NCBI RefSeq assembly: GCF_902826655.1
Contig: NZ_CADEFR010000013.1
Coordinates: forward strand, 1-64,000
From: an uncultured Methylibium sp.
Lineage (GTDB): Bacteria; Pseudomonadota; Gammaproteobacteria; Burkholderiales; Burkholderiaceae_C
Length of the DNA: 64,000 nucleotides
Direction of reading: 5' to 3'
Shown here: positions 53,432 through 63,178 of the stretch, one piece after another
How positions within the stretch are numbered: the first letter of the stretch is position 1
Layout of the letters: every line of letters begins with the position of its first letter
Notes under the pieces: generated by a model
Told to the model about the DNA's origin: nothing
Database searches by the model: none
Seen by the model: the letters and a program-made list of their open reading frames with translations, nothing else
Program-made: the position numbers and the translations under genes

Positions 53432-54268
53432 CTAGGGCACGCGGGGACGCTCGCGCACCGACTCTCGGTTCAGCTCCCGGAAACTGCGGCAGGCATCCCC
53501 GAAGGCGCGCAGCAGCGTCATCGAGACGGGGTTGTCGCGCGCCTGCCATTCGGGATGCCATTGCACCCCGAGGTTGAAGCCCGGCGCCGACGGGCGCGAG
53601 AAGGCCTCGACCACGCCGTCCGGCGCCAGGGCCTCGACGCGCAGGCCGTCGGCCAGGCGCTTGACGCCCTGGCCATGCAGGCTGTTGACCTTGAACTCCG
53701 TCTCGCCCAGCAGCGTGGCCAGCAGGCCGCCCGGCTGCACGTGCACGGGATGGGCCGGGCCGTACTGCACCTCGACCGGATCATCGTGACGATCGCGGTG
53801 GTCCATCAGCCCCGGCTGCTCCTGCACCGCCTGGTGCAGGCTGCCACCGAGCGCCACGTTGGTCTCCTGGAAGCCGCGGCAGACGGCGAACAGCGGGATG
53901 CCGCGTTCCAGCGTCCGCGGGATCAGCGGCAGGGTCCAGTCGTCGCGCGCGGGGTCCAGCGGCAGCGAGGGGTCGTGGACAGCCTCGCCGAAGTGACGCG
54001 GATGCACGTTGCTCGGCGAGCCGGTGAGGAAGACGCCATCGGCCAGGTCCAGCAGTTCGTCGATCTCCTGCAACTGCGCCGACGGCACGACCAGCGGCAG
54101 GCAGCCGGCCAGCCGCACCGCGTCGACGTACTTCTGGCCGGCGATGTGGAAGGGGTGGTGGCCGATCCGGCGGTTGCAGGCCGGGACCAGCACGACCGGG
54201 CGAGCGGAGGAGCCCATGGCCGGGCCTCGTGCAAGCGGCATGCCACGCAGGGCTTCGGGCTTGTTCAC
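53432..54268 (-). CDS. puuD: gamma-glutamyl-gamma-aminobutyrate hydrolase PuuD
   Basis: A class I glutamine-amidotransferase-like hydrolase that frees GABA from gamma-glutamyl-GABA. Catalytic Cys130 is in FAVCRGFQE, with VNSLHGQGVKRL and GVQWHPEW supplying the histidine block. Start: a GTG at 54268 overlaps the puuB stop by 4 bases and has AAGGA upstream; it gives 278 residues. An in-frame ATG at 54217 would put the nucleophile at residue 113, close to Cys114 of E. coli PuuD. Both starts remain possible. Confidence 0.87.
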   Translation of the reverse strand: MNKPEALRGMPLARGPAMGSSARPVVLVPACNRRIGHHPFHIAGQKYVDAVRLAGCLPLVVPSAQLQEIDELLDLADGVFLTGSPSNVHPRHFGEAVHDPSLPLDPARDDWTLPLIPRTLERGIPLFAVCRGFQETNVALGGSLHQAVQEQPGLMDHRDRHDDPVEVQYGPAHPVHVQPGGLLATLLGETEFKVNSLHGQGVKRLADGLRVEALAPDGVVEAFSRPSAPGFNLGVQWHPEWQARDNPVSMTLLRAFGDACRSFRELNRESVRERPRVP

Positions 54269-55590
54269 AGCGCGTCCTTCAGCCGGTAGTAGGCCATGCC
54301 CAGCACCAGCGCGGGCGTGCGCAGCAGGCGCCCGCCGGGAAAGCGACGGTGCTTCAGGCGCGCGAAGGTGTCGAAGCGCGAGGCGTCGCCGGCCATCGCC
54401 TCGGCCACCAGCTTGCCAGCCAGGCCGGTGAGGGCCAGGCCGTGGCCCGAGAAGCCCTGCAGGTAGTAGACGTTGGCGGCCTGGCCCGGCAGCCGGCCGA
54501 AGTCCGGCGCCCGGTTCATCGAGATGTCGACGAAGCCGCCCCAGGCGTAGTCGACGCGCGTGCCCTGCAGCTGCGGGAAGGTGGTCGCCATGCGCTGCTG
54601 CATCCCGTCGGCCAGGTGCATGGGCGTGACGGTGCTGTAGCTGACCCGTCCGCCGTAGAGCAGGCGGTGGTCGGCGGTCGGGCGGAAGTAGTCGAGCACG
54701 AAGTTGGTGTCGCAGACGGCCGAACGCGACGGGATCAGCGACGCGCACAGCGCCGGGTCCAGCGGTTCGGAGCAGACGATGTAGGTGCCGACCGGCATGA
54801 TGCGCGCACCGAGCTGCGGCGCGATCTGCGGTGCCAGCTCCTGCAGGTAGACGTTGCCGGCGAGCAGCACCTGCCGCGCCCGCACGCTGCCCTGCGCCGT
54901 GCGCACGAGGTTGGACGTGCCGGGCGCGATCGCCGGCTCGAGCGCCGTCACGGCCGACTGCTCGAAGATCCTCACACCCAGCGATCGCGCCGCATTCGCC
55001 AGCCCCAGGCTGTACTTCAGCGGATGCAGGTGGCCGGAGCGCGGGTCGTGAAGGCCGCTGTGGAAACGCGGGCTCGCGATCCACTGCGGCAGTTCGTCGG
55101 GGCCGATCCAGCGCAGCGGGTAGTCGTAGACCGAGACGGTGCGCGCATGCCAGCGCTGCAGCTCGGCGGCCTTGCGGGCGCCGACCGCCACACCGAGGTA
55201 GCCGTCCTGCCAGTCGCAGTCGATCGCGAAGCGGCGGCAGCGCTCGCGGATCAGGTCCAGCGCCTCGATCGACATCGACCAGACGCGCCGGGCTTCGTCG
55301 AGGCCCAGCTGCGACTCGATCTCGTCCTGGTCGCAGGCCAGGCCGTGGATGGCCTGCCCGCCGTTGCGGCCCGACGCGCCCCAGCCGATCTGCCGCGCCT
55401 CGAGCAGCGCGACGCTGAAGCCGCGGTCGGCCAGCTCGATGGCGGCCGACAGGCCGGCCAGGCCGCCACCGACGATGGCCACGTCGGCGGTGATGCCGCC
55501 TTCGAGCGCCGGAAAGTCCGTCTCGCGCGGCGCGGTGGCCACGTAGTAAGAGTCTCGCGTGAGGTCCTGGTCGGCGCGAAGGAGGCTCAT
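54265..55590 (-). CDS. puuB: gamma-glutamylputrescine oxidase (PuuB type, FAD-dependent)
   Basis: A 441-residue DadA-like flavoprotein oxidising gamma-glutamylputrescine to the aldehyde with H2O2. The FAD motif is VGGGLAGLSAAIELA, followed by the EARQIGWGASGRNGGQAIHG block of the PuuB/OrdL group. Its stop overlaps puuD by 4 bases. A related amine or amino-acid oxidase cannot be excluded, but the cluster supports PuuB. Confidence 0.88.
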   Translation of the reverse strand: MSLLRADQDLTRDSYYVATAPRETDFPALEGGITADVAIVGGGLAGLSAAIELADRGFSVALLEARQIGWGASGRNGGQAIHGLACDQDEIESQLGLDEARRVWSMSIEALDLIRERCRRFAIDCDWQDGYLGVAVGARKAAELQRWHARTVSVYDYPLRWIGPDELPQWIASPRFHSGLHDPRSGHLHPLKYSLGLANAARSLGVRIFEQSAVTALEPAIAPGTSNLVRTAQGSVRARQVLLAGNVYLQELAPQIAPQLGARIMPVGTYIVCSEPLDPALCASLIPSRSAVCDTNFVLDYFRPTADHRLLYGGRVSYSTVTPMHLADGMQQRMATTFPQLQGTRVDYAWGGFVDISMNRAPDFGRLPGQAANVYYLQGFSGHGLALTGLAGKLVAEAMAGDASRFDTFARLKHRRFPGGRLLRTPALVLGMAYYRLKDAL

Positions 55591-55651
55591 ACGGTATGCG
55601 CTAGGCAGTGCCCTCGTGTGCGTGTCGTCGTGGCGGCCGGCGGACGCGGGC

Positions 55652-56956
55652 TCAGGCCGCGCGCTTCAACGCGTCGGCCAGGCTGCCGATCAGCTGGTCG
55701 ACCTGCTGGCGGTTGATGATCAGCGGCGGCGACATCGCGACCGTGTCGCCGGTGGTACGGATCAGCACGCCCTTCTCCCAGCAGGCGAGGAAGATGTCGA
55801 AGGCGCGCTTGCCGGGGCTGCCCTCGATCGGCTGCAGTTCGACGCCGCCCACCAGGCCGATGTTGCGGATGTCGATCACGTGCGGCAGCCCCTTCAACGC
55901 ATGCAGCGACTCGGCGAAGTAGGCCTCCATCTCGCTGGCGCGCGTCAGCAGGCCCTCGTCGGCGTAGGTGTCCAGCGTGCCGATGGCCGCGGCGCAGGCC
56001 AGCGGGTGGCCCGAGTAGGTGTAGCCGTGGAAGAACTCGATGATGTGCTCGGGGCCGTTCATGAAGGTGTCGTGGATGGCCTGCTTGGCAAACACGGCGC
56101 CCATCGGCACGCAGCCGTTCGTCAGGCCCTTGGCGACCGTCATCAGGTCCGGCGTCACGCCGAAGCGCTGCGCCGCGAAAGGCGCGCCGGTGCGCCCGAA
56201 GCCGGTGATGACCTCGTCGAAGATCAGCAGGATGCCGTGCTTGTCGCAGATCGCACGCAGGCGCTCGAGGTAGCCCTGCGGCGGCAGCAGCACGCCGGTG
56301 GAGCCGGCGACCGGCTCGACGATGACGGCCGCGATGGTGCTGGCGTCGTGCAGTGCGACCAGGCGCTCCAGGTCGTCGGCGAGTTCGACGCCGTGCGCCG
56401 GCTGGCCGACCGAGAACAGGTTGCGCGCATCGTGCGTATGGCGGATGTGGTCGACGCCGCCCAGCATCGTGCCGAACATCTTGCGGTTGGCGACCATGCC
56501 CCCCACCGAGATGCCGCCGAAGTTGACGCCGTGGTAGCCGCGCTCGCGGCCGATCAGCCGGGTGCGCTGGCCCTCGCCGCGGGCGCGGTGGTAGGCGATC
56601 GCCATCTTCAGCGCGGTGTCGACCGACTCGGAGCCCGAGTTGGTATAGAAGACCTTGTTCATGCCGGCCGGCGCGATCTGCACCAGACGCTCGGCCAGCT
56701 CGAAGGCCTTGGGGTGGGCCATGTTGAAGGGCGGCGCGAAGTCGAGCTCGCCGGCCTGCTTGCGGATCGCCTCGATGATCTTCGGGCGCGCATGGCCGGC
56801 ATTGACGCACCACAGGCCGGCGATGCCGTCCAGCACCTGGCGGCCTTCGGGCGTCCAGAAGTGCATGCCTTCCGCGCGCGACAGCAGACGCGGCGCCTTC
56901 TTGAATTGCCGGTTCGCCGTGAAGGGCATCCAGTAGGCGTCGAGATCGGTCGTCAT
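55652..56956 (-). CDS. beta-alanine--pyruvate aminotransferase (omega-amino acid type)
   Basis: A 434-residue class III aminotransferase. YWMPFTANRQFKKAPRLL near the start, TNSGSESVDTALKMAIAYHRARGEG, GRERGYHGVNFGGISVGGM and PLP Lys276 in DLMTVAKGLTNG match the Pseudomonas omega-amino-acid:pyruvate enzyme. It would turn beta-alanine (from spermidine breakdown through 1,3-diaminopropane) into malonate semialdehyde; GABA is also a possible substrate, in which case it would serve as PuuE. It is the first gene of the minus-strand cluster, divergent from the AsnC-type regulator. Confidence 0.87.
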   Translation of the reverse strand: MTTDLDAYWMPFTANRQFKKAPRLLSRAEGMHFWTPEGRQVLDGIAGLWCVNAGHARPKIIEAIRKQAGELDFAPPFNMAHPKAFELAERLVQIAPAGMNKVFYTNSGSESVDTALKMAIAYHRARGEGQRTRLIGRERGYHGVNFGGISVGGMVANRKMFGTMLGGVDHIRHTHDARNLFSVGQPAHGVELADDLERLVALHDASTIAAVIVEPVAGSTGVLLPPQGYLERLRAICDKHGILLIFDEVITGFGRTGAPFAAQRFGVTPDLMTVAKGLTNGCVPMGAVFAKQAIHDTFMNGPEHIIEFFHGYTYSGHPLACAAAIGTLDTYADEGLLTRASEMEAYFAESLHALKGLPHVIDIRNIGLVGGVELQPIEGSPGKRAFDIFLACWEKGVLIRTTGDTVAMSPPLIINRQQVDQLIGSLADALKRAA

Positions 56957-57118: not shown

Positions 57119-57610
57119 ATGCCACCCAAGACAGTTCGCGCGCAATCCGATGCGTCCCTGGACGCCATCGATCGAGCCATCCTGGGCGAATTGCAGGTCG
57201 ACGGGCGCGTCTCCAACCTGGAGCTGGCGCAGCGCGTGCACCTGTCGCCCTCGGCCTGCCTGCGGCGCGTCAAGCAGCTGGAGGAGGGCGGCGTCATCGC
57301 CAGCTACGTGGCCCTGGTGAACCCCCGCGCCGTCGGCCAGCCGGGCACGAGCTACACGATCGTCAACCTCGAGCGGCTGACCAGCATCGCGATCGAGGCC
57401 TTCGAGGGCGCGGTGCGGGGCGTGCCCGAGATCCTGGACTGCTTCTATGTCGCCGGGACCAACGACTACCTGATCCGCTTCACCTACCGGGACGCCGATG
57501 ACCTGGAGCGCTTTCACAGCCAGGTGCTGATGCGGTTGCCGGGCGTGCTGCGCTCGAACTCGATGCTGGTGCTGCGGACCATCAAGAAGACCACGGCGCT
57601 GCTGGTCTGA
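57119..57610 (+). CDS. Lrp/AsnC-family transcriptional regulator
   Basis: A 163-residue feast/famine regulator. The N-terminal helix-turn-helix (DRAILGELQVDGRVSNLELAQ, LSPSACLRRVKQLEE) is followed by a RAM ligand-binding domain (VRGVPEILDCFYVAGTNDYLIRFTYRD). The start at 57119 has no strong ribosome binding site. Divergent placement at the head of the polyamine genes and the half-site array upstream suggest it senses an amino acid or amine of the pathway. Confidence 0.9.
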   Translation: MPPKTVRAQSDASLDAIDRAILGELQVDGRVSNLELAQRVHLSPSACLRRVKQLEEGGVIASYVALVNPRAVGQPGTSYTIVNLERLTSIAIEAFEGAVRGVPEILDCFYVAGTNDYLIRFTYRDADDLERFHSQVLMRLPGVLRSNSMLVLRTIKKTTALLV

Positions 57611-57716: not shown

Positions 57717-58739
57717 ATGGATTCGAATGACGGCCTGCTGGCCGACTGGCGCGGCCGGGCACTGGAACTCGAGGCGCTGGCGGGTCGCGCCGTGATCGGG
57801 CAGGCGCGCGCACTGCGACTGATCACCACCGCCGTGTTCGCGCGGGGGCATGTGCTGCTGCAGGGCGACGTCGGCGTCGGCAAGACGACCTTGCTGCGCA
57901 GCGTGGCACGCCTGATCGGCGGCGCCTTCGGCCGCACCGAGGGCACCGTCGACCTGATGCCGGCCGATCTGGTCTATCACACGCACATCAACACCGACGG
58001 GCGGCCGCAGGTGGATCCGGGTCCGCTGACCGAGCACGGCGACGACCTGGCGATCTTCTTCTTCAACGAGATCAACCGTGCCCGGCCGCAGGTGCACGCA
58101 CTGCTGCTGCGCGTGATGGCCGAACGCAGCCTGACGGCCTTTAACCGCGAGTTCCGCTTTCCGCACCTGCTGGTGTTCGCCGACCGCAACCGGGTCGAGC
58201 GCGAGGAGACGTTCGACATCTCGGCCGCGGCGCGCGACCGCTTCATGATGGAGATCGCGATCGACGCGCCGGCGAGCGACGCCGACCGCCGCGCGCTGAT
58301 GTTCGATCCGCGCTATCACGACACCGATGCGCTGGTCGGCGAGCTGCCCTTCGGCATGCTGCCCTACCGCGAGCTGGGCACGGTGGCGGCGGCGGTGCAG
58401 CACGGCATCCAGGCGTCCGACGCGCTGCGCGACTACGCGCTCCACCTGTGGCGCGCCACCGGCGCGCCGGCCGACTACGGCGTGGCGCTGGAGCAGGCCG
58501 ACACACGCGACCTGATGCTGGCCGGCGCCAGCCCGCGTGGCATGAGCCTGATGCTGCGGGCCGCCCGCACTGCGGCCTGGCTCGACGGCCGCAGCTACGC
58601 GACGCCCGAGGACCTGCGTGCCGTCTTCTACGAGACCATCGCGCACCGGCTGTGCCTGCAGCCGGTGTACGAGCTGCGGCGCACCGAGATCATCGACGCG
58701 CTGATGGACGGCATCGTGTCGCGCGTCGCCGCGCCCTGA
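57717..58739 (+). CDS. mxaR: MoxR-family AAA+ ATPase, MxaR type
   Basis: A 340-residue AAA+ ATPase. Walker A GDVGVGKTT is at residues 50-58 (Lys56). The Walker B region reads FFFNEINRARPQ, with Asn117 where most MoxR proteins have Asp. Sensor and lid blocks follow (FADRNRVEREETFDISAAARDRF). The residues around it (YHTHINTDGRPQVDPGP, LTAFNREFRFPH) resemble MxaR of methanol-dehydrogenase clusters. Such ATPases work with von Willebrand domain proteins to mature metalloenzymes. AAGGAAA just upstream supports the ATG at 57717. It heads a six-gene array with gaps of 4, 1 and negative bases. Confidence 0.82.
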   Translation: MDSNDGLLADWRGRALELEALAGRAVIGQARALRLITTAVFARGHVLLQGDVGVGKTTLLRSVARLIGGAFGRTEGTVDLMPADLVYHTHINTDGRPQVDPGPLTEHGDDLAIFFFNEINRARPQVHALLLRVMAERSLTAFNREFRFPHLLVFADRNRVEREETFDISAAARDRFMMEIAIDAPASDADRRALMFDPRYHDTDALVGELPFGMLPYRELGTVAAAVQHGIQASDALRDYALHLWRATGAPADYGVALEQADTRDLMLAGASPRGMSLMLRAARTAAWLDGRSYATPEDLRAVFYETIAHRLCLQPVYELRRTEIIDALMDGIVSRVAAP

Positions 58740-58743
58740 GCCG

Positions 58744-59583
58744 ATGGCCGTCTCCGAGTTCCACTACCGCGTGCGGGGCCGCGCGAGCGGCCACGGGCCG
58801 GGGGCACATCGCAGCCGCCGCGGCGAGTCGGGCCTGGAGTTCCGCGGCCATGTGCCGCTGCTGGATGCCGCCGACGTGCGCCGCATCGACGTGCATGCCA
58901 GCCTGCGCGACGCCTTCGGGCAGTGGCAGCTCAAGGTGTTCAGCGAACCGATGGCGGTCCCGGTGATCGTCGTCGCCGATCTGTCGGCCTCGATGGCCTA
59001 TCGCGGCGAACGCGCCAAGCTGGACGTGCTGGCGGACTTCACCGAAGCGGCGGCGCAGTCGGCCTGGCGCCATGGCGATCCCTTCGGCTTCGTGGGCTGC
59101 GACGACGCGGTGCGCCGCGACTGGCTGACGCCGCCGACGCGGCGCCGCGGGCAGGGCGGGCTGCTCGCGCAGCGGCTGCGCGCCCTGCAGCCGCACGGCT
59201 CGGCGCGCGGTCTCGCACTGGCCGCGCGCGCCCTGCCGCAGCGGCGCAGCCTGGTATTCGTGGTCTCGGACTTCCACCTGCCGGTGCCCGAGCTGGACAG
59301 CGTGCTGGCCGCCCTGGCGCATCACGAGGTCGTGCCGGTGCTGCTGTGGGATCGGCACGAGTTCGAGCCGCCCCGCAACGGCATCCTGCAGCTGAGCGAC
59401 CCCGAGACCGGCCAGCAGCGGCTGGTCTGGATGCGTACGGCCTTGCGCGAGCGCTGGGTCGCCGCGCAGGCCGCGCGTCGCGCGGCCCTGCAGGCGCTGT
59501 TCCATCTCCATCGCCTCGACCCGCTGGTGCTGGACGACGGCTACCGCGCCGACGCGGTGAGCGCGCATTTCGTGCGGGCCTGA
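58744..59583 (+). CDS. mxaS: DUF58/von Willebrand-like protein, MxaS type
   Basis: A 279-residue cytosolic protein. A MIDAS-like metal site is visible as Asp79-x-Ser81-x-Ser83 (ADLSASM), in the VWA-like DUF58 domain that usually follows moxR. The N-terminal region (GLEFRGHVPLLDAADVRRID) is typical of the family. Partner of the MoxR ATPase; its gene starts 4 bases after mxaR stops. Confidence 0.8.
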   Translation: MAVSEFHYRVRGRASGHGPGAHRSRRGESGLEFRGHVPLLDAADVRRIDVHASLRDAFGQWQLKVFSEPMAVPVIVVADLSASMAYRGERAKLDVLADFTEAAAQSAWRHGDPFGFVGCDDAVRRDWLTPPTRRRGQGGLLAQRLRALQPHGSARGLALAARALPQRRSLVFVVSDFHLPVPELDSVLAALAHHEVVPVLLWDRHEFEPPRNGILQLSDPETGQQRLVWMRTALRERWVAAQAARRAALQALFHLHRLDPLVLDDGYRADAVSAHFVRA

Positions 59584-59584
59584 G

Positions 59585-60505
59585 ATGACGACGTCGCGTT
59601 GGCGTGGCCTGCTGCTCGGCCTGGCTTGCGGGCTCGCGGTGGTCGGCGCGCTCGCCGCCGAGCCCGATGCGATCGGCGTGCAGATCACGGAGCCGCGCGC
59701 CTTCGGGCACATGGTCGGCGATGTCGTGACGCGCCGCATCGTGCTGGACGTGCCGGCGCGGCTGAAGCTCGTCGAGGGATCGCTGCCGGCGCCCGGCCGC
59801 GTCGGCCAGAGCTTCGAACTGCGGCGCGTGCAGCACGAGCGCGACACCACGATCGGCGGCGTGCGGCACCTGCTGCAGCTCGACTACCAGGTGTTCCGCG
59901 CACCCGGCGAGCCGCGCGTGCTGGACCTGCCGAGCTTCGTGCTGCGCTTCGAGGGCCAGCCGCGCGGCGAGGAGCTGCGCGTCGACTACGCACCGGTCGG
60001 CGTGGTGCCGCTCGCGCCGGCCGAGCCGGTGCTGCGCGCCGGCTTCGGCGCGCTGCGGCCCGATCGCCTGCCGCGGCCCGTCGACACGCGGCCGGAACGC
60101 GTGCGGCTGCTGCTGTATGCGGTGCTGGCCCTCGGCCCGCTCGCCTACCTGGCCTATGTCCACGTCGGCTGGCCGTGGTGGCGCCGTCGGCAGCAGCCCT
60201 TCGCGGTCGCTCAACGGCAGCTGGCCAGCTTGCCGCTCGACGCGCCGGCCGAGCGCTGGCTCGGCGCCTGGCGGGCGCTGCACGCCGCGCTGGATGCCAG
60301 TGCCGGTCGCGTCGTGCAGGCCGACGGGATCGAACGCTTCGTCGGCGAGCGGCCGCGCTTCGCCGCACTGCGCGACGACCTCGGCCGCTTCTTCGATCGA
60401 TCGCAGGCCTTGTTCTTTCGCGAAAGCGCGCTGATCGATGCCGACCGGCAGTGGCTGCGGGACTTCTGCCGGCGTTGCTTCGATGTCGAGCGGGGGGCAG
60501 CATGA
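59585..60505 (+). CDS. mxaA: MxaA-like membrane protein
   Basis: A 306-residue protein. It has a signal peptide (residues 1-25, ending ALAA), a periplasmic beta-rich domain, one membrane span at about residues 174-192 (LLYAVLALGPLAYLAYVHVGW), and a cytoplasmic helical tail. MxaA is required for calcium insertion into methanol dehydrogenase in Methylobacterium. It starts 1 base after mxaS and overlaps mxaC by 4 bases. Confidence 0.72.
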   Translation: MTTSRWRGLLLGLACGLAVVGALAAEPDAIGVQITEPRAFGHMVGDVVTRRIVLDVPARLKLVEGSLPAPGRVGQSFELRRVQHERDTTIGGVRHLLQLDYQVFRAPGEPRVLDLPSFVLRFEGQPRGEELRVDYAPVGVVPLAPAEPVLRAGFGALRPDRLPRPVDTRPERVRLLLYAVLALGPLAYLAYVHVGWPWWRRRQQPFAVAQRQLASLPLDAPAERWLGAWRALHAALDASAGRVVQADGIERFVGERPRFAALRDDLGRFFDRSQALFFRESALIDADRQWLRDFCRRCFDVERGAA

Positions 60506-61566
60506 GCGTGGCCGGGCTGTGGCTGTCGATCGGCTGGGCGCATCCGGCCTGGCTGCTGCTGCTGCCCCTGCTGCTGCTGCCGCTGTGGCGCGACGGCCGC
60601 GCCGAGCGCGCCCATTCCTGGCTCGGACTGCTGCCGGCCGACCGGGCGTCGGACGTGCTGCACTGGCTGCTGCGCGTCGTGGGCGCGCTGGCCGTGGCCG
60701 CCCTGGTCATCGGCCTTGCCGGCGTCTACCGCGCGGAGTACGAGGTCGAGCGCGTCGGTCAGGGCGCCGAGATCGTGGTGCTGCTCGACCGCAGCCGCAG
60801 CATGGACGAGCGCTTTGTCAGCAGCGCGCCGCGGGGCCGCGCCCCCGCGCCCGGCACGGCGGCCTGGTATGCCTACAACCAGCCCGACGACAGCGAGCGG
60901 GTCACCAAGGGCCAGGCGGCCCGGCGCATGCTGTCGGAGTTCGCGGCGGGCCGTACGGAAGACCGTTTCGCCATGGCGATCTTCAGCACGCTGCCGATGC
61001 GCGTGCTCGACTTCACCCAGAAGCCCGAGATGGTCCAGGCCGCGATCGCGGCCGGCGAGATCGGCCGCGGCCTGGGCGAGACCGACATCGCGACCGCGCT
61101 GCTGCACGGCCTGAGCTTCTTCGACGACCGTCCCTACACCGGCTCGCGCATCGTCCTGCTGGTCTCCGACGGCGGCGACCACATCGACCCCGGCGTGCGC
61201 CAGGCCCTCACGGACCGCCTGCGCGAGCAGCGCGTGTCGCTGTACTGGATCTACATCCGCTCGGCCCGCAGCCCGGGCCTCAAGGCCGCGGCCGGGGACA
61301 CACCGGGCAAGGCCGACACCGTGCCCGAGGTCTTCCTCGACCGCTTCTTCGCGTCGGCCGGCACGCCCTACCGCGCCTACGAGGCCGAGAACCCCGAGGC
61401 CCTCCAGCGCGCCATCGCCGACGTGGGCCGGCTCGAGAACCTGCCGATCACCTATCGCGACGTGGTGCCGCGGCGCGACCTCTCGTCGATGGCCTATGCG
61501 GTCGCCCTGGCGGCGGTGCTGCTGCTGCTGGCCAGCCGCTGGATGGAGCATCGGGCATGGCGCTGA
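60502..61566 (+). CDS. mxaC: von Willebrand factor A-domain membrane protein, MxaC type (BatA-like)
   Basis: A 354-residue protein with two N-terminal spans (about residues 14-27 and 50-72), a VWA domain with the full MIDAS Asp96-x-Ser98-x-Ser100 (LLDRSRSM), and a C-terminal span near residue 340. It binds Mg2+/Ca2+-type metals through the MIDAS site. Overlaps mxaA by 4 bases at its start and the next gene at its end. Confidence 0.8.
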   Translation: MSVAGLWLSIGWAHPAWLLLLPLLLLPLWRDGRAERAHSWLGLLPADRASDVLHWLLRVVGALAVAALVIGLAGVYRAEYEVERVGQGAEIVVLLDRSRSMDERFVSSAPRGRAPAPGTAAWYAYNQPDDSERVTKGQAARRMLSEFAAGRTEDRFAMAIFSTLPMRVLDFTQKPEMVQAAIAAGEIGRGLGETDIATALLHGLSFFDDRPYTGSRIVLLVSDGGDHIDPGVRQALTDRLREQRVSLYWIYIRSARSPGLKAAAGDTPGKADTVPEVFLDRFFASAGTPYRAYEAENPEALQRAIADVGRLENLPITYRDVVPRRDLSSMAYAVALAAVLLLLASRWMEHRAWR

Positions 61567-62105
61567 TGACGCCGCGACAACGACTCGCCTCGGCCTGGCT
61601 GCTGCTGGGCCTGCTGGCCGCGGCCGCGGCGCTGGACGGCTGGCGCTGGCGCGACAAGGCGGCCGACAACGCGCACATCGCGGCGGGCGTGCCGGCGCGC
61701 CCGCCGCTGTCGGCGCGCGAGGAAGTCCGTTTCGCGCACGCCAGCGAACTGGCGACGCGCAAGTCGCACGAGGCGGCCGTCGACGCCTACCGCCTGCTGC
61801 AGGGCGACGACGAGTTGGGACAGGCCGCGCGCTACAACGCCGCCAACCAGCTGTTCCTGCAGGCGCTGGTCCTGCGCGAGTCGCCGCTGCCCGGCCAGGC
61901 GCTGCCCCTGATCGAGCTGGCGAAGTCCGGCTACCGGGAGGTGCTGCGCGTCGATCCGCAGCACTGGGATGCCCGCTACAACCTCGAGCGCGCGCAGCGT
62001 CTCCAGCCCGATCCCGACGACGCGCCGGTCGACGCGGGCGGACCGCCCGAGAACGCGGAGCGCGCCGCGACGACGATGCGCGGCGTGTCGCGCGGACTGC
62101 CATGA
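61557..62105 (+). CDS. mxaK: MxaK-like TPR-type membrane-anchored protein
   Basis: A 182-residue protein with one N-terminal span (about residues 11-28) and a periplasmic helical region (RKSHEAAVDAYRLLQ, ARYNAANQLFLQALVL, YREVLRVDPQHWDARYNLERAQ) that resembles TPR repeats, as in MxaK. Two starts are possible: 61557 (10-base overlap with mxaC) or 61566 (TGATG overlap, strongly coupled). A Pro/Glu-rich tail ends it. Confidence 0.7.
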   Translation: MALMTPRQRLASAWLLLGLLAAAAALDGWRWRDKAADNAHIAAGVPARPPLSAREEVRFAHASELATRKSHEAAVDAYRLLQGDDELGQAARYNAANQLFLQALVLRESPLPGQALPLIELAKSGYREVLRVDPQHWDARYNLERAQRLQPDPDDAPVDAGGPPENAERAATTMRGVSRGLP

Positions 62106-63178
62106 AGTCGCCGCTGCCCGGCTGGCGGGCGACCGCCACGAGCCTGCGGCGCAGCGGGGCGCGCGGGCTGTTGCTCGTCGCCGCGCTGGCGCTGCTGGCG
62201 GCCCTCGGGCGGCCGGCCCTCCACTGGCCGCAGCAGCAACACGATCTGCTCATCGTGCTCGACGTCACGCAGAGCATGGAGGTGGCCGACCTGCTGCGCG
62301 ACGGTGAACCGGTGACGCGGCTCGAGCAGGCGCGCTGGGCACTGGCGCAATCGCTGCGGCGTCTGCCCTGCGGCAGCCGGGTCGGCTGGGGCTTGTTCAC
62401 CGAGTACCGGTCCTTCCTGCTGCTCGAGCCGGTCGAGGTCTGCGAGCATCAGCGCGAACTGCTGGCGATGCTGGGCCACATCGACGCCCGCATGGCCTGG
62501 ACCGGCAACAGCGAGGTCGCCAAGGGCCTGTACAGCGGGCTGAAGATCGCCAAGGCGCTGTCGTCGAAGCCGGCACTGGTGTTCGTCACCGATGGCCACG
62601 AGGCGCCGCCGGTCCATCCGCAGTACCGGCCCAGCGACGAGGGCGCGGTGCGGGTCGTGCCGGGTCTCGTCGTCGGCGTCGGTGGCGACCGACCCGCGCC
62701 GATCCCGAAGCTCGACCCCGAAGGCCGCACCTATGGCTACTGGGCCGCCGACGAGGTCATGCAGCGCGACCCGCGCAGCTTCGGGCGCGGCGGCAGCGTC
62801 GCCGGCGAGCAGATGGTGGACGATGGGCCGGGGGGGGCGCCGGCCCTGGTGGGCGCAACGCCCGGCACCGAGCATCTGTCCTCGCTCAGGGAACCCTATC
62901 TGCGCCTGCTGGCCGAGGAGACGGGCCTCGTCTATCACCGGCTGAATGATCCCGAAGCGCTGTACCGCGCGCTCACGGACCGCCGCCTGGCCCATCCGAT
63001 CGTCTCCCGGATGGATGTCGGCTGGATGCTCGCCCTCGTCGCACTGGCCGCCGTGCTGGCGGTCTACCTGCCGTGGCCGGCGCTGAGGGACCGGATCAGC
63101 GCGCTGAGCGCTGGCGGTCGCGAGCGGCACGACCGCTCAGGTAGGTCCACACGAAGTTCGCTGCCGCGTAGCTCGTGA
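62102..63178 (+). CDS. mxaL: von Willebrand factor A-domain membrane protein, MxaL type (BatB-like)
   Basis: A 358-residue protein with an N-terminal span (about residues 20-37), a VWA domain with MIDAS Asp54-x-Thr56-x-Ser58 (LDVTQSM), a second span at about residues 304-323 and a short basic tail. Together with MxaC it gives two VWA subunits of the module. Overlaps mxaK by 4 bases at its start. Its last 83 bases overlap the 3' end of the convergent agmatinase gene. Confidence 0.78.
   Translation: MKSPLPGWRATATSLRRSGARGLLLVAALALLAALGRPALHWPQQQHDLLIVLDVTQSMEVADLLRDGEPVTRLEQARWALAQSLRRLPCGSRVGWGLFTEYRSFLLLEPVEVCEHQRELLAMLGHIDARMAWTGNSEVAKGLYSGLKIAKALSSKPALVFVTDGHEAPPVHPQYRPSDEGAVRVVPGLVVGVGGDRPAPIPKLDPEGRTYGYWAADEVMQRDPRSFGRGGSVAGEQMVDDGPGGAPALVGATPGTEHLSSLREPYLRLLAEETGLVYHRLNDPEALYRALTDRRLAHPIVSRMDVGWMLALVALAAVLAVYLPWPALRDRISALSAGGRERHDRSGRSTRSSLPRSS

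Follow-up and report, generated by a model that had tools for sequence, protein, structure and literature searches.

What does a complete set of methanol dehydrogenase maturation genes do where no methanol dehydrogenase is encoded beside it? The question is raised by a stretch of 64,000 nucleotides (the window; contig NZ_CADEFR010000013.1, here C13) from an uncultured Methylibium sp. (assembly GCF_902826655.1), in which six intact, same-strand open reading frames (ORFs) at 57717-63178 are either separated from their neighbours by 1-4 bp or overlap them by 1-4 bp. A first-pass annotation had described them as an orphan mxaRSACKL-like module with the order MoxR, DUF58, MxaA, VWA, TPR, VWA, and the ORFs and Pfam agree with that order. 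On the reading we favour, to which we give a probability of about 0.6, the six genes are an MxaRSACKL maturation module and its client in this genome is XoxF5, a pyrroloquinoline quinone (PQQ)-dependent methanol dehydrogenase encoded on another contig.

MxaR carries the AAA_3 and AAA_lid_2 domains, MxaS the DUF58 domain and MxaC a VWA_2/VWA domain; MxaL falls slightly below the cut-off for VWA_2, MxaK gives a weak match to TPR_16 (E 0.098), MxaA matches no Pfam family, and none of the six proteins reaches the cut-off of an NCBIfam model. The Walker and MIDAS (metal ion-dependent adhesion site) motifs are intact. All six genes are matched in 33 of 37 further module loci (36 from relatives and one from contig C5 of the same genome), with the other four stopping at contig ends and one of the 33 (L048) having mxaL cut by the contig start, so the gene set is not a product of chance. 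In a tree of MxaR from 106 loci (two short rows of 108 were dropped), built by a quick method with support from the Shimodaira–Hasegawa-like approximate likelihood ratio test only, the window protein groups with MxaR of MxaF-linked clusters, far from the genome's own generic MoxR, whose copies are 28-36% identical to it. It lies in a 36-row clade (support 95, starred) that contains 18 XoxF-linked rows and none of the 12 MxaF-linked rows; the latter form one side of a weak branch (support 61). The root is unsure, because the outgroup is a single row of generic MoxR on a very long branch. The window genes belong to the MxaRSACKL family and are not generic Bat proteins; the identity first proposed is upheld, with R placed inside the MxaR family.

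In a sample of 299 genomes of the family, including the genome studied here, a protein search with MxaA gives 33 matches, 31 of them strong; the two weak ones (G075 and G175), where the profile finds nothing, and a weak profile match in a 6048-aa frame (G153) were removed from the counts. XoxF5-type matches (78-100% identity) occur in 39 of the 299 genomes and are present in all 31 genomes with a credible MxaA (Fisher 5e-35 by genome); likewise, all 18 MxaA genera fall within the 22 XoxF5 genera (3e-18), both values being uncorrected for phylogeny. In genera g69, g86, g88 and g106, every member seen to have the module also bears XoxF5. PQQ dehydrogenases at E 1e-60 or better are found in 99 family genomes, and none of the 60 that lack XoxF5 has a credible MxaA. 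MxaI is found in 0 of 44 tested family genomes, including all 31 MxaA carriers. The second Asp of the D-x-D motif marks lanthanide sites, and D-x-D is present in all 30 family XoxF5 loci that were read (39 XoxF5 genomes in all). Among 12 non-XoxF5 matches read, ten have D-x-D, one D-x-N and one (G151) neither Asp of the motif, and the MxaF-type D-x-A-G occurs in none. We note that a XoxF paralogue on contig C13 of G151 (L269), about 61% identical to the XoxF studied here, reads NNNWGFSAAT, with both Asp missing.

The module is also physically linked to xoxF5 in sampled relatives. In 13 of the 31 family genomes, no more than 15 kb separates MxaA from xoxF5; in G103, G180 and G091, mxaR and xoxF are adjacent, divergently oriented ORFs with approximately 200-300 bp between them, and in a Methyloversatilis locus (L178) xoxF directly follows mxaL in the same orientation. 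Removal of nine duplicates from 118 loci left 109 for labelling, and L182, which has a XoxF-like end of 77 aa, received no label; for 80 named loci, the flank examined shows XoxF in 11 and MxaF in 12. The MIDAS-like motif of MxaL has Q in 11 of 12 XoxF-linked loci, whereas all 12 MxaF-linked loci have G or R, a split that shared ancestry may explain.

In ten distinct loci, all from the window's 36-row clade, mxaR is preceded by a same-strand gene for a TonB-dependent receptor (a script gave 11 loci, of which two were duplicates, and L061, with an over-extended mxaR ORF, was added), and five of the receptors are confirmed by Pfam. Loci with both this receptor and xoxF5 within 15 kb come from several genera (Table 1), and one such stretch (L058) also holds a PQQ-associated beta-propeller (TIGR03866, above cut-off) and an ABC-binding protein (TIGR03863, below cut-off). 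The siderophore and PqqU models score the receptor below their cut-offs. A same-strand upstream receptor is found in none of the 12 MxaF-linked loci with probe receptors drawn from the XoxF clade, so dissimilar receptors elsewhere could be missed; one MxaF-linked locus (L172) has a TonB receptor 6.5 kb upstream on the opposite strand.

The genome itself, a 4.22 Mb draft in 142 contigs listed as 100% complete, has PF13360 matches on four contigs: a BamB-like protein on C18 and dehydrogenases on C62, C87 and C116. The contig end truncates the C116 gene, which encodes the N-terminal 340 aa of a methanol dehydrogenase of XoxF5 type (motif WDFDG; best solved structure XoxF 6dam). C62 encodes a PedH-like PQQ alcohol dehydrogenase (WDFDG) and C87 a third PQQ enzyme (YDHDG), and the best solved structures for both are 6zcv/6zcw, listed as quinoprotein ethanol dehydrogenase, which we take to be the lanthanide enzyme PedH; the match of C87 is much weaker than that of C62. 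All three dehydrogenases carry D-x-D, including the lanthanide-site Asp. PqqC, the only pqq gene searched for, is above cut-off on C1. No MxaF (D-x-A) is found in the draft genome by the PF13360 search and motif reading, and MxaI is not detected by a model that is positive in 5 of 300 genomes of the order. In two congeners, a whole xoxF is followed by a small cytochrome-like gene and a binding-protein-like gene, as judged by eye.

The first-pass statement that the module lacks a methanol dehydrogenase therefore needs to be divided. It holds for contig C13, where the PF13360 search finds no PQQ dehydrogenase, and with no MxaI in the genome its remark that no MxaFI lies nearby stands; at the level of the genome it is wrong, as genes for a XoxF5-type enzyme, for two other PQQ alcohol dehydrogenases and for PqqC are present. 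Its suggestion that a client might be encoded elsewhere agrees with the xoxF gene on C116. The calcium-insertion framing fits poorly, because all three dehydrogenases have the lanthanide-site Asp.

A second complete RSACKL module, 37-54% identical to that of the window, lies on contig C5, where the PF13360 search finds no PQQ dehydrogenase; its MxaR falls in a separate clade with XoxF-linked Methyloversatilis. Congener genomes, too, have two modules as well as xoxF. The nearest named locus to the window module belongs to the same genus (Methylibium sp. Root1272; MxaR 88% identity).

With XoxF5 as the client, MxaRSACKL would be an envelope-anchored module that matures a lanthanide-type enzyme. 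The cytosolic MoxR ATPase (R) and the DUF58 protein (S) would drive the module through the membrane-spanning MxaA, and the driven parts, i.e., the membrane-bound VWA proteins C and L with their metal-binding MIDAS sites and the TPR protein K, would help the secreted dehydrogenase gain its metal-PQQ site in the periplasm. Predicted MxaA (pLDDT 90) comprises an N-terminal hydrophobic helix, a beta-sandwich, a long transmembrane-like helix and a helical C-terminal domain. The matches of the model in the PDB are Ig-like and weak (E no better than 5e-4; TM, normalised to query length, under 0.3 among the matches listed), and therefore no function is assigned to MxaA from its fold. A bolder proposal, which we put forward tentatively and at less than even odds, is that MxaRSACKL is not calcium-specific and serves in this Burkholderiales clade as a dedicated XoxF5 lanthanide-insertion machine, with the upstream TonB receptor coupling outer-membrane metal import to insertion.

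Several observations weigh against XoxF5 as the client. Eight of the 39 family XoxF5 genomes have no credible MxaA by profile, and in a sample of 300 genomes of the order (XoxF5-type threshold 69% or more) 13 of 25 XoxF5 genomes lack MxaA, counting one XoxF5 match with two stops (G473). Methylibium shows no linkage of the module to xoxF (distances of 122 kb and 1.6 Mb in congener G053), and the MxaR tree has no clean split, with the long-branched, XoxF-linked L141 placed close to the MxaF-linked rows. The literature, cited here from excerpts, adds further points. A reviewer comment printed with PMC2474590 states that mutation of xoxF in Methylibium petroleiphilum left methanol dehydrogenase activity and that Mdh2 is the methanol dehydrogenase of this organism, and according to a 2024 review XoxF does not require mxaACKLD and mxaRSEH (PMC11845868). 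Under La or Ce, accessory genes or proteins of the mxa set go down in M. extorquens (PMC6414531), M. silvestris (PMC9291206) and M. trichosporium (PMC12482762), and XoxF goes up in the first two; all three are methylotrophs with MxaFI. Because the review denies a requirement and eight of 39 XoxF5 genomes are without the module, the module assists XoxF5 at most.

MxaA is present in 21 of the 300 order genomes, after removal of G101 (E 8.6e-4 in a 2701-aa frame). Twelve of these have a XoxF5-type enzyme, five have MxaI together with a D-x-A MxaF, and four have no match at 1e-85; at a looser threshold, two of the four show split XoxF-like matches of 57-67%, and the other two (G299 and G443), apart from other PQQ dehydrogenases, have nothing more than fragments resembling XoxF (61-95% over 20 to ~100 aa). 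From the family and order counts, the module implies XoxF or MxaF in our samples (two cases resting on fragments), and XoxF5 does not imply the module.

Of the other explanations, the one that survives best, although we consider it unlikely, is that the client is another PQQ alcohol dehydrogenase (the PedH-like C62 enzyme, C87 or Mdh2), or that the two modules serve different enzymes. The genome encodes two such enzymes and two modules, Mdh2 has the published role described above, and an evolved M. extorquens strain showed a joint rise of ExaF and mxa accessory genes (PMC8969499). The distribution speaks otherwise, as the module occurs in 0 of the 60 genomes with only non-XoxF5 PQQ dehydrogenases and in 31 of the 39 XoxF5 genomes (Mdh2 was not identified by sequence). 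In addition, a calcium-type PQQ dehydrogenase (WDFSGNN, L258) found near the C62 orthologue in G053 is absent from the PF13360 matches of our genome, which keeps both modules.

Less probable still is that the module loads calcium, e.g., so that XoxF5 or other PQQ enzymes work when lanthanides are scarce. This would accord with the description of MxaACKL as a calcium inserter for MxaFI (PMC6028718) and with the drop of mxa genes under lanthanides in the three methylotrophs named above, but no calcium-type PQQ dehydrogenase was found in the genome, and the D-x-D motif is invariant in the family XoxF5 loci read. That the module is left over from an MxaFI system since lost, an idea proposed for some Sphaerotilus genomes that have XoxF5 and carry mxa fragments, read by the authors as remnants (PMC13300288), is very improbable. 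Accessory genes are indeed present without mxaFI, MxaA of one order genome (G376) has an in-frame stop, and the second module evolves faster than that of the window, with ratios of nonsynonymous to synonymous substitution (dN/dS) of 0.31-0.74. However, the window module is under purifying selection: by the NG86 method against two congeners (G053 and G154), as for the second module, its six genes give dN/dS of 0.15-0.47 without stops (xoxF, 0.17-0.19), and their motifs are intact. Retention of the full gene set across the fetched loci and of two modules in one genome, the tie to XoxF5 and a clade distinct from MxaF-linked modules point the same way. That the genes form a generic envelope stress module of the Bat kind, without a dehydrogenase as client, would fit the similar domain order, but is equally improbable given the position of R within the MxaR family, the distance of the genome's generic MoxR copies and the presence of XoxF5 in all 31 sampled carriers.

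Table 1. Positions of the module genes, their neighbours and related loci (window coordinates unless a locus is given)
Feature	Position	Strand	Remarks
mxaR-like MoxR AAA+ ATPase	57717..58739	+	340 aa; Walker A GDVGVGKT, Walker B-like FFFNEINRA, FADRN
mxaS-like DUF58 protein	58744..59583	+	279 aa; DLSASM motif
mxaA-like protein	59585..60505	+	306 aa; no Pfam family
mxaC-like VWA protein	60502..61566	+	354 aa; MIDAS LDRSRSM, LVSDG
mxaK-like small TPR-like protein	61566..62105	+	179 aa
mxaL-like VWA protein	62102..63178	+	358 aa; MIDAS-like DVTQSM
Lrp/AsnC-type regulator, directly upstream of module	57119..57610	+	Pfam/NCBIfam; no evidence for control of module
Oxidase-like and aminotransferase-like genes, left of module	54265-56956	-	by eye
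Second RSACKL module (C5)	L043 7150-12575	-	
Calcium-type PQQ dehydrogenase of G053	L258 10915-12771		WDFSGNN
TonB-dependent receptor directly upstream of mxaR	L056 12455-14809	as mxaR	xoxF5 within 15 kb
TonB-dependent receptor directly upstream of mxaR	L058 12230-14572	as mxaR	xoxF5 within 15 kb
TonB-dependent receptor directly upstream of mxaR	L054 5217-7940	as mxaR	xoxF5 within 15 kb
TonB-dependent receptor directly upstream of mxaR	L062 12213-14609	as mxaR	xoxF5 within 15 kb

To the right of the module lies an agmatinase-like gene, judged by eye only, and the oxidase-like and aminotransferase-like genes to its left suggest, also by eye, polyamine catabolism.

What is informative here is the association with XoxF5 together with the linkage to its gene, both of which are hard to square with a view of the module as calcium- and MxaFI-specific. 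The excerpts cited take MxaACKL to insert calcium into MxaFI and XoxF to be independent of these genes. The present genome combines two intact modules with PQQ dehydrogenases that, as far as found, are all of the lanthanide type; with XoxF5 in 31 of 31 carriers, metal and client are therefore directly testable in one genus, which bears on the metallation of lanthanide enzymes. Already in print are mxa accessory genes without mxaI in Methylibium petroleiphilum (PMC2474590) and orphan modules in XoxF-only Methylophilaceae, of which JLW8 and 301 carry mxaRSACKL in two sets and lack mxaFJGI, with XoxF belonging to the core genome (PMC4109929). In a non-exhaustive literature search, no paper was found that ties the module to a TonB receptor or, in Burkholderiales, to xoxF5; as far as searched, the systematic XoxF5 association and the TonB receptor gene that precedes the module in several relatives are new.

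Among known systems, the mxaRSACKL genes of MxaFI methylotrophs (Ancylobacter, Hyphomicrobium, Methylobacterium Leaf117 and others) agree with the window in gene content, order and domains, and their MxaR is 59-64% identical to that of the window; unlike in the window, a D-x-A MxaF starts approximately 4 kb upstream in the 12 loci of this kind. Bat operons follow a MoxR-DUF58-VWA-TPR logic with a domain order of the same kind; the comparison with them was made for MoxR only, and the window MxaA has no Pfam family. The Methylophilaceae orphans JLW8 and 301 resemble the present genome in their two sets, XoxF and lack of mxaFJGI, as reported in the excerpt; Methylophilaceae MxaR rows in our tree, which do not include these two strains, fall in a clade different from that of the window. 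Finally, M. petroleiphilum and Sphaerotilus have accessory genes without mxaI or MxaFI, as does the window's genome, and whereas the excerpts cited draw no tie between these genes and XoxF, here the tie is drawn.

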